From a bacterium (GTDB lineage Bacteria; CSSED10-310; JAJRTK01), in the NCBI GenBank assembly GCA_024278345.1, contig JAJRTK010000124.1, positions 1 to 9,142 on the forward strand: DNA of 9,142 nt. Direction: 5' to 3'. The notes under the pieces are model-generated. The model saw only the letters and a program-made list of their open reading frames with translations, did no database searches and had not been told where the DNA came from. Position numbers and translations under genes: made by a program. Positions 5,527-9,013 of the stretch are shown in pieces. Position 1 is the first letter of the stretch; each line of letters opens with the position of its first letter.

Positions 5527-6594
5527 TCAACTCTTTTTCTGGAAGGCCGGGTGTTGGAACCCGCAGTCGCGGCAGCTCTTGCGCCGGAAATGGCTCGGCT
5601 CCCTGGGGAGAAGGCAGCGAACACAGGTGTTCTCGTACCGGCCTTGAAGGGCACGGTTGACCAGGTCTTCAAGGCAATCGACGAAGCGCGGATGGAAGCC
5701 GATGGCATCGGTTCTCTCGAAGATATCAATCCCGAGTCCTCGGGCGAGCTTACCGTAGAGCAAGTCAATTTCGTAGAGTGACTCAAGGTGTTCCGATACG
5801 AAGCTCAAGGGAATCACCAAAAGTTGTTTGCAGCCCGTGGCGGCCAGCCTTTCGATTTCGTTGTCGGTGGAGGGGCTGAGCCAGCGGACCGGCCCGACGC
5901 GGCTTTGATAGGAGAGGGAGAAGGGACCGGTCCAGCCCAGCCTGGCCAGCAGTGTGCGGACGTTTTGCTGGATCTGAGCTTGATAGGGATCTCCCTTGCG
6001 GATGAAGGAGATGGGAAGGCCGTGGGCCGAAAAGAGAAGATGGGTCGGATTCTCGGAGCCGCGCAGGCTCTGGAGTTTTGACCGGATCCTCTCCGTCAAG
6101 GCGTCGAGAAATCCGGGATGCTCGTGCCATGCGGGAATGAAAAGCGTACGGAGCCGGGCGTTTCGGGACCGGATTGCTCGGGAAAGGCTGTTAAAAATCG
6201 ATCCGGTGGTTGCCAGGGAGTAGTGAGGAAAAAGGGCCAGGCAAACAAGGGTGTCGATTCCTTTCGAAAGGATGGAATCGAGGACTTCATCGATTCCGGG
6301 AGGTGTATAGGCCATGGCAACAAAGACGGGGTTCCCGGAACCAAGGCGCTGGGCAAGAAGCCCGGCCAACTTCTGGCTGTCCTGGACCAGTGTGGAGCCA
6401 CCACCGATCTGCCGGTACTGCTCTTCCACCATGGGGCTTCGCCGGCGACTGATATACCGCGCCAAGCGCCTTCGAATGGGGCCGGGAAAAGGCAGAATGA
6501 CCGGATCGGAGAAAAGGTTCTCCATAAATGGCCGCACTTCCGCCAGACTCGCGGGGCCTCCGAAGTTCATGAGCAGAACGGCCGATGAGGTCAT
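5527..6594 (-). CDS. hemH: Ferrochelatase with C-terminal four-cysteine motif
   Basis: It inserts ferrous iron into a porphyrin, the last or near-last step of heme synthesis, usually at the inner face of the membrane. The 355-residue product has LLMNFGGP (residues 7-14), YRQIGGGSTL (60-69), FSAHGLP with metal-site His191, YQSRVGPVRWLSPSTDNEI (229-247), and FVSEHLESLYEID (265-277) with Glu268/Glu271. These are the standard HemH motifs. Residues 324-344 add CVRC and CRDC, a CX2C-X13-CX2C arrangement. Some bacterial ferrochelatases carry C-terminal cysteines binding a [2Fe-2S] cluster, but this symmetrical spacing also looks like a zinc ribbon. The ATG at 6594 has GGGAAGGGA a few bases upstream. 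It lies 24 bp behind the UppS-like gene, so the two are likely co-transcribed. Confidence 0.95.
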   Translation of the reverse strand: MTSSAVLLMNFGGPASLAEVRPFMENLFSDPVILPFPGPIRRRLARYISRRRSPMVEEQYRQIGGGSTLVQDSQKLAGLLAQRLGSGNPVFVAMAYTPPGIDEVLDSILSKGIDTLVCLALFPHYSLATTGSIFNSLSRAIRSRNARLRTLFIPAWHEHPGFLDALTERIRSKLQSLRGSENPTHLLFSAHGLPISFIRKGDPYQAQIQQNVRTLLARLGWTGPFSLSYQSRVGPVRWLSPSTDNEIERLAATGCKQLLVIPLSFVSEHLESLYEIDLLYGKLARGLGIDIFERTDAIGFHPRFVDCLEDLVNRALQGRYENTCVRCLLPREPSHFRRKSCRDCGFQHPAFQKKS

Positions 6595-6618: not shown

Positions 6619-7371
6619 TCAGCCTGCCCTTGGGAGTGGCGGAGAGCTCGGCACTCTCCCAAACCTGCGCTCCCTTGACTGATAGTCCACGAGAGCCTCT
6701 TCCAGCATGTCCGCCTCGTAATCGATCAAGCTCCAAGAAGCCAGGCAAAGCTCAGCGTAGGCTTGTTGCCACAGCATGGCGTCCCCAACACGGGATCGAG
6801 AATCCAACAAAAGCATGAGATCCGGATCGGGTTGGTCTCGAGTCTCCAAGGTTCGGCTGATCAACTGAGAATCAATGGCGGAAAGGGATAGCCTGCCCGC
6901 CGCCACGGCTCTGGCGATTTCGCGGGCCGCCAAGACAAGCTCGGCGCGGGAGCGGTAGTCAAGGGCAAGATTCAGCCTCAATCCGCGATTGTTCCTGGTT
7001 TTCTCTTCCAAGAACCACAGAGCCGTGGGAATGAGCTCCCGGCGCTGGAACGCCTGGCCCGATAAAAGAGTCACCCGCACGCCAGCTCCATGAAGCCAAC
7101 CCCCATGTTGGACTGCAAACTCTTCAAACAGGCCAATGGCTTCCGGGCTGGGATCAGGACAGAGGGTAACGATCTCAAGATCCATGTGAATGGCGTCGCC
7201 AGTCAGTTTTCGAAGGGCGGTAAGACCAGGTTGGGCTTGTTTGTCCCCATCCCTTGGAGTGCTCGCCGGCGGCTTGACCGCGAAGCGAATCGCAATGTGC
7301 CGAGGGAGCCTGTACGGATCGATCCTGGCTGTCAGGGCGGGCCTTGGTCGCCTTTCCTCTGGTGCTGCCAC
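6619..7371 (-). CDS. Divergent UppS-family (cis-prenyltransferase) homologue lacking catalytic motifs
   Basis: UppS normally condenses isopentenyl units into undecaprenyl diphosphate, the wall-glycan carrier lipid. The C-terminal half here is clearly of that family: RLNLALDYRSRAEL, then DPDL (residues 182-185), MLWQQAYAEL (199-208), and RERRFG (233-238). However, the N-terminal HIAI-MDGNGRWA motif reads RHIAIRFAVKPPAS, putting Ala31 where the catalytic Asp should be. FSxENW is replaced by LCPDPS, and RTSGE-R by LLDSRSR, so only the second Arg remains. Start: GTG 7371 has GGAGG (7377-7381) five bases upstream and gives 250 residues, the family length. An alternative GTG at 7410, just after an in-frame stop, has no good ribosome binding site. 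The frame is intact, so a non-catalytic role or a partner subunit is more likely than decay. It is followed closely by hemH. Confidence 0.8.
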   Translation of the reverse strand: MAAPEERRPRPALTARIDPYRLPRHIAIRFAVKPPASTPRDGDKQAQPGLTALRKLTGDAIHMDLEIVTLCPDPSPEAIGLFEEFAVQHGGWLHGAGVRVTLLSGQAFQRRELIPTALWFLEEKTRNNRGLRLNLALDYRSRAELVLAAREIARAVAAGRLSLSAIDSQLISRTLETRDQPDPDLMLLLDSRSRVGDAMLWQQAYAELCLASWSLIDYEADMLEEALVDYQSRERRFGRVPSSPPLPRAG

Positions 7372-7459
7372 TTTGGCCTCCAACCATTTCTGCGGGTGAA
7401 CCCCGGTCACCGGTCTGCTTCAACCTGTCGCGTCGCCGTTTCGAAGTCGGTACAGCGAT

Positions 7460-7843: not shown

Positions 7844-9013
7844 ATGTTCATTCCTGTGGGGGACCATCCCAATCCCCGGGGCATTCCCTACGTCAACTGG
7901 TTGCTCATCGGTCTGAACGTCGGGATTTACTTTTTCGTGTCCTGGCCTTTGTTGTCGCGAGCGGCGGATCTCTACGATCCGGCGACCGTGGCCTATCTTG
8001 AGGCGATGAGTCGTGCCCTCGGGGTTCCCGCGCGAGCACTGGCTCGTCAGGTCACGGCCTATGACGTTTTTGTCTTCCAGCACGGTTACATTCCGGCGTC
8101 GCCTTCGCTCATCGACCTCTTTAGCTCCATGTTCCTTCATGCGGGTTTCTTGCATCTTGCCGGCAACATGCTTTTTCTCTGGATCTATGGCGACAACGTG
8201 GAGCATCGCCTTGGTCGCGTTGGCTATTTGGTGTGCTACTTGGCGACAGGCGTTGCCGCCACCGTGGGGCACGCGTTTTTTTCTGGCGGTTCCACACTGC
8301 CGCTTATTGGGGCCTCGGGGGCGATTAGTGGCGTGTTGGGCTTTTATTTTGTCTGGTTCCCTCGGAACACGGTCAAGGTTCTTCTTATCCTCTTTCCTTT
8401 TTTTGTCAACGTGATTGAGCTGCCCGCTCGTTGGGTCCTGGGTTTCTACCTTGTTCTTGACAATCTGCTGCCCCTTGCTTTTTCCGGTGGCGGAGGAACA
8501 GGCGTCGCCTACGGGGCTCACATTGGCGGTTTTCTGGGGGGCGTTGCCTTGGCGGTTCTTGTGAGCCGATTGAAAGCGGAGCGGACGGCTCAGCGGTTCG
8601 CGCCAAGAATGGCGGCGGGAATTGGCACGGTTGATGCCGTCACCGAAGCTCTTGGCCAAGGGAAATGGGGAGAAGCGGCCCAACGGTATTTGCGGATGTC
8701 CAGGGCTGAGCTTGCGCGGATTCCGGCGCGGACGGCACTGGAGATTGCCCGCTGGCTGGAAAAGGAAGTCTCCTTCGCGGTAGCCAAAGTCGCCTACCGC
8801 CGATTGATCGGCAGCCATCCCCGGGGGCCGCATTTAGCGGAAGCCTACTTGGGGCTCGGCCTGTCCCACCTTCGGGCTGGTGATTCTACGACTGCGTACC
8901 AGCATTTGTTGACCGCCCTGGATCTCGATCCATCCCCGCGGGAGCGTGAGATCATCATGGAAGCTCTGGCCACCATTGCCCAATGGCAGAGGCGGCGCCG
9001 GAGTTTTTACTGA
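7844..9013 (+). CDS. Rhomboid-family intramembrane serine protease with C-terminal TPR-like domain
   Basis: Rhomboids cleave substrates within the membrane using a Ser-His dyad. The 389-residue product begins in the style of one bacterial subfamily (PVGDHPNPRGIPYVNWLLIGLNV). It has the HLAGNMLFLWIYGDNVEHRLG block with His104 and Asn108, GASGAISG with catalytic Ser158, and AHIGGFLGG with His226. Six or so hydrophobic segments lie between residues 17 and 241. Residues 245-389 form a soluble helical extension ending in a TPR-like unit: LAEAYLGLGLSHLRAGDSTTAYQHLLTALDLDP. This makes the protein longer than single-domain rhomboids of about 220-240 residues. The start ATG has CGGAG six bases upstream. 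It is transcribed alone, away from the uppS-like gene, and is followed seven bases after its stop by a repeat element. Confidence 0.93.
   Translation: MFIPVGDHPNPRGIPYVNWLLIGLNVGIYFFVSWPLLSRAADLYDPATVAYLEAMSRALGVPARALARQVTAYDVFVFQHGYIPASPSLIDLFSSMFLHAGFLHLAGNMLFLWIYGDNVEHRLGRVGYLVCYLATGVAATVGHAFFSGGSTLPLIGASGAISGVLGFYFVWFPRNTVKVLLILFPFFVNVIELPARWVLGFYLVLDNLLPLAFSGGGGTGVAYGAHIGGFLGGVALAVLVSRLKAERTAQRFAPRMAAGIGTVDAVTEALGQGKWGEAAQRYLRMSRAELARIPARTALEIARWLEKEVSFAVAKVAYRRLIGSHPRGPHLAEAYLGLGLSHLRAGDSTTAYQHLLTALDLDPSPREREIIMEALATIAQWQRRRRSFY

Follow-up and report, generated by a model that had tools for sequence, protein, structure and literature searches.

A UppS-fold pseudoenzyme as the probable second subunit of a heteromeric bacterial cis-prenyltransferase

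Heteromeric cis-prenyltransferases have been placed in eukaryotes, the bacterial enzymes being called homodimeric (review, PMC7839719). In the human complex of DHDDS and NgBR (NUS1), as in yeast Rer2/Nus1, the catalytic subunit lacks the C-terminal RXG motif, and a pocketless subunit supplies RXG together with a neighbouring interface segment in trans (PMC7573591). The C-terminus of human NgBR, a protein with no substrate cavity, crosses the interface, where the backbone of Leu291/Gly292 holds the S2 phosphate; RXG and Arg259 of NgBR contact DHDDS in trans, Arg259 through a salt bridge to DHDDS Glu81, and the kcat of the complex is ~400-fold above that of DHDDS alone (PMC7573591). One archaeal heteromer, MM_0618/MM_1083 of Methanosarcina mazei, is cited in PMC8131916, which gives it as reported to make a C45-50 glycosyl carrier lipid. 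A search confined to open-licence papers, beyond which such a report may exist, rendered no report of a heteromeric cis-prenyltransferase from bacteria. As far as can be read from the sequences, the bacterial pair described here resembles the human and yeast complexes in its division of motifs; it can be likened to the archaeal one by description, as a prokaryotic heteromer, and differs from it in host. In homodimeric bacterial UppS (E. coli, B. subtilis, M. luteus), on the other hand, the active-site and trans-acting elements are located on one chain, whereas here they appear split over two.

The window, that is, the whole stretch of 9,142 nucleotides analysed, includes the following features:

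5527 to 6594, minus strand: hemH (ferrochelatase; TIGR00109, E 1.1e-82), 24 bases downstream of the gene under study.
6619 to 7410, minus strand: the gene under study, encoding a UppS-fold pseudoenzyme (PF01255 match and AlphaFold model), proposed to be a non-catalytic, NgBR-like subunit.
6658 to 6675, minus strand: RERRFG with the RXG motif (residues 246-251, from the sequence), proposed to complete the active site of the partner.
6751 to 6762, minus strand: retained AYAE (residues 217-220, from the sequence), proposed to act in trans on the partner; the counterpart region of NgBR contacts DHDDS Glu81.
7135 to 7173, minus strand: IVTLCPDPSPEAI (residues 80-92), where FSxENW has been lost, with ~10 residues fewer than UppS has here (alignment).
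7264 to 7299, minus strand: HIAIRFAVKPPA (residues 38-49), aligned to the P-loop and alpha1 of UppS and lacking MDGNGRW (alignment; alpha1 is missing in the model).

By our own residue count, we take Arg259 of NgBR to be located in the segment that corresponds to AYxE, and Glu81 of DHDDS presumably lies in its FSxEN loop. Elsewhere in the window, a plus-strand gene (7844-9013) that diverges from that of the pseudoenzyme encodes a rhomboid protease domain followed by TPR-like repeats (Pfam search), and two adjacent minus-strand ORFs (1-552 and 630-1109) encode small lipoprotein-like products, 26% identical over 149 residues (E 1e-12), which match no Pfam family and are read as tandem copies from a family not described before.

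The gene under study encodes a real, intact protein of the UppS fold. The initial annotation had placed an intact ORF at 6619-7371, which is borne out, on the minus strand, although the frame stays open up to a GTG at 7410, giving 263 codons in which the GTG at 7371 is an internal alternative start; along most of the ORF, this frame scores best of all for coding potential. The match to PF01255 (Pfam search, E 4.8e-23) is limited to profile positions 77-219. Against the uppS equivalog model the protein scores 76.7 bits, under the cut-off of 109.55 bits. An AlphaFold model (pLDDT 85) shows the UppS fold, with Z 25.8 and an rmsd of 2.5 over 207 residues against M. luteus UppS (1f75_B), but helix alpha1 after the P-loop strand is missing and alpha2 is shortened. 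The elements said to be kept, DPDL, AYAEL (within LWQQAYAEL) and RERRFG, are all present. The active-site motifs had been described as replaced in place and without gaps: in the alignment MDGNGRW (the P-loop with the catalytic Asp), FSxENW and RTSGE are indeed gone, but the lengths do not hold, since the FSTENW/alpha3 start is shortened and the segment from HIAI to the next strand is a net 2 residues shorter than in UppS, with no alignable P-loop (MAFFT renders it as a 6-residue deletion plus insertions). Moreover, it is not just the first Arg of RTSGE that has changed to Leu, as had been proposed, the whole motif being replaced by LLDSR. A frameshift behind these losses was rejected, as the patterns DGN.R and FS.EN occur in none of the frames of the gene.

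In lacking active-site motifs while having a UppS-like C-terminal half and RXG, the window protein shows the characters of an NgBR-type non-catalytic subunit; a catalytic partner without RXG in the same genome (see below) is a further one. With homodimeric UppS, the bacterial system shares the fold, the C-terminal half and the housekeeping locus of the catalytic partner. By sequence, the nearest relatives of the window protein are bacterial UppS proteins (33% identity with one from its own phylum), which argues for a derivation independent of NgBR. In PDB searches it matched M. tuberculosis Rv2361 with E 3e-20 and NUS1 with E 0.1, so that it is not closer to NgBR. The best 50 matches listed by Foldseek or VIA-align were filled by UppS entries, and the absence of NUS1 among them carries no weight in either direction. 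A profile of four pseudoenzymes (see below) matched NgBR up to its C-terminus (E 1.1e-12) and yeast Nus1 weakly, UppS being matched better. The bacterial pair also differs from DHDDS/NgBR in that the pseudoenzyme has no transmembrane anchor (the top 19-residue mean hydropathy is 1.09, and not N-terminal) and the catalytic subunit has no long C-terminal helical domain.

Exactly two PF01255 genes are found in the genome of the window, and the second (contig C148, L001:1369-2256) is the canonical UppS that the initial annotation had suggested looking for. It carries MDGNGRW, FSTENW and RTSGE and is located directly before cdsA (Pfam match) and downstream of two ORFs that we read as pyrH and frr. 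Its model is a standard UppS, with a TM of ~0.9 by target length to many entries and a low-confidence tail beyond residue 265. Its C-terminus is YQKRTPEVAGDRL, where other UppS proteins read YQxRxRRFG; neither RRFG nor RXG was found in any frame of the locus, and PNAE occupies the AYxE position, the Tyr being lost. Judged from the two sequences, the active copy has thus lost exactly what the dead copy retains, namely RXG and AYxE.

When 290 bacterial genomes of ~220 families were surveyed for PF01255, with follow-up of all other genomes having at least two matches, two further complementary pairs came to light, and the phylum of one of them yielded a third. The pair is therefore present in four genomes of three phyla: that of the window, G154 and G290, which belong to different families of one phylum, and G033, from yet another phylum. 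In the last three, the catalytic UppS keeps MDGN[GR]RW, FSxENW and RTSGE and lacks RXG, and its AYxE is replaced by ARSQ (G154), VGAR (G290) or IESE (G033), while the partner gene lacks the catalytic motifs and bears SYAE, SYAE and PYAE, respectively, and a C-terminal RQRRFG (G154, G290) or RSRRFG (G033). All four catalytic subunits are encoded immediately ahead of cdsA, where the housekeeping uppS is located, and RRFG was found in no frame after any of them, so that a frameshift was rejected as the reason for their loss of RXG. G201, on the other hand, was set aside: the frame of its first UppS (L080, contig C10) ends short of the tail, with RRFG lying in a different frame, likely through a frameshift or an assembly error.

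Residue-by-residue reading of 58 genomes rendered at least one active UppS with RXG in all 54 that lack a pseudoenzyme and in none of the four that have one (G201 was counted by its second copy, active and RXG-bearing; the N-terminus in G006 is cut by a contig end). The corresponding p is 1/C(58,4), ~2e-6, if the genomes are independent, and ~3e-5 with three lineages, values to be taken as a guide and not as a formal test because the genomes were partly picked through their matches. The ~230 matches listed, which come from two partly overlapping genome sets, all reach the last profile position except those of G106 and G282 (contig ends); ~35 of the 290 surveyed genomes had no listed match and fall outside the count. 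Among the UppS variants seen, a third, divergent UppS-like protein (L082; G104:C6, minus strand, ORF at reverse offset 4771) has PDGNRRW, RWGGR and a C-terminus, QDITLGG, that recalls the TLGG end of the O-prenylating M. mazei MM_0014, and it is possibly an irregular bacterial cis-prenyltransferase.

We consider it highly probable that the window protein and the C148 UppS form a heteromeric cis-prenyltransferase of the DHDDS/NgBR type. The NgBR-like subunit contributing RXG that had been put forward for this gene is thus strongly supported, the sole canonical UppS of the genome lacking RXG and the Tyr of AYxE, and the same pair recurring in G154, G290 and G033. The window protein would be the non-catalytic subunit of an undecaprenyl (polyprenyl) diphosphate synthase and would dimerise with the catalytic UppS from the frr-uppS-cdsA locus, lending its C-terminal RXG tail and AYxE segment across the dimer interface after having given up its own substrate pocket. 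P-loop, FSxENW and RTSGE would act in cis on one chain, and AYxE and RXG in trans on the other, leaving one active site per heterodimer, compared with two per homodimer. We infer a physical complex, an activity dependent on the partner, and the length of the product.

It could also be the case that the catalytic UppS needs no partner and is active as a homodimer without RXG, the role of the pseudoenzyme being unrelated or only regulatory. RXG-less homodimeric cis-prenyltransferases are known, MM_0014 crystallising as such (PMC8131916); likewise, the short-chain Z-synthase 2vfw was crystallised as a chain that ends before RXG, and a few second UppS copies in the surveyed genomes lack RXG too (L072, L075). 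These copies, however, are additional to a UppS that bears RXG; in the four genomes described here it is the only housekeeping UppS, encoded before cdsA, that lacks the motif, and the losses of RXG and AYxE coincide with a partner that retains exactly RXG and AYxE, which makes this explanation rather improbable. L072 itself (G269:C140) has all catalytic motifs and ADAD at the AYxE position, and stands beside the RXG-bearing L063 with no dead partner.

That the window gene is a recently decaying duplicate, a functionless pseudogene in the making, is very unlikely and already largely refuted. The N-terminal half of the protein has strongly diverged, and the seven other genomes of the phylum each have a single RXG-bearing UppS and no close orthologue of the gene; a scan of genome contigs turned up canonical UppS only. 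The frame, however, is intact and has a coding signal, and RERRFG, AYAE and the core are retained, only the active-site motifs being lost. An orthologous pseudoenzyme is found in both G154 and G290, 37% identical between the two and in the same gene order (pseudoenzyme, a small LysM-like gene, uvrB), which indicates that the pseudoenzyme is old and retained, not decaying; decay would also leave the loss of RXG in the other copy unexplained. The small protein matched no Pfam family, so that "LysM-like" is only our reading of its sequence.

We give as little credence to a mixed-contig artefact, in which the two proteins would come from different organisms. The genome is a draft of 550 contigs, 88% complete, and the two genes are on separate contigs that differ slightly in GC content (0.60 for the window contig, 0.575 for C148), but both lie within the range of the bin in GC and tetranucleotide profile, a composition that fits one bin and is supportive rather than decisive, and the same kind of pair is present in three other assemblies. 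Since the draft is incomplete, a third, RXG-bearing UppS could be missing from it; this is less likely in G154, G290 and G033, which are 92-97% complete. Least credible of all is a function in heme or isoprenoid handling tied to hemH, as the initial annotation had offered in the alternative: the spacing of 24 bases on the same strand makes co-transcription with hemH probable, but hemH adjoins none of the other pseudoenzymes, whose neighbours are the LysM-like gene and uvrB (G154, G290) or genes that we read from their ORFs as hisF/hisI-like (G033), so that its adjacency is incidental.

The two-subunit synthase would have originated by duplication of uppS followed by a split of the cis- and trans-acting residues, in at least two independent events. 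Among 60 genomes, the best match of the window protein was the UppS of G001, of its own phylum. In FastTree trees, the pseudoenzymes group together (support 0.82) on long branches, while the catalytic UppS of the window genome groups with that of G001 (0.61) when pseudoenzymes are left out and with L036 (0.76) when they are included, and that of G033 joins G154/G290 weakly (0.68-0.84). A common ancestry of all the pairs was considered, but the trees are poorly supported and no single clade unites the catalytic subunits; the one from the window genome stands apart from those of G033, G154 and G290, which, with low support values, favours independent origins. The heteromeric arrangement therefore probably arose independently at least twice.

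The fact that a dead copy keeps the pieces lost by the working UppS, and that this split recurs in other phyla, makes it probable that, like animals, fungi and some archaea, some bacteria assemble this essential cell-wall lipid synthase from a pair of unlike subunits. Judged by its family match alone, the non-catalytic subunit would be annotated as just another UppS. If the proposal is true, an independent bacterial heteromer would show which of the shared active-site residues act in cis and which in trans, the bacterial pairs, small and soluble, would serve as models for the disease-linked DHDDS/NgBR complex of humans, and the question of why evolution repeatedly splits the cis-prenyltransferase would become testable. 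It is likely, in our view, that obligate heteromeric cis-prenyltransferases exist in bacteria, having arisen convergently at least twice with their cis- and trans-acting residues on two genes, and that synthesis of the peptidoglycan carrier lipid in these phyla depends on a pseudoenzyme.
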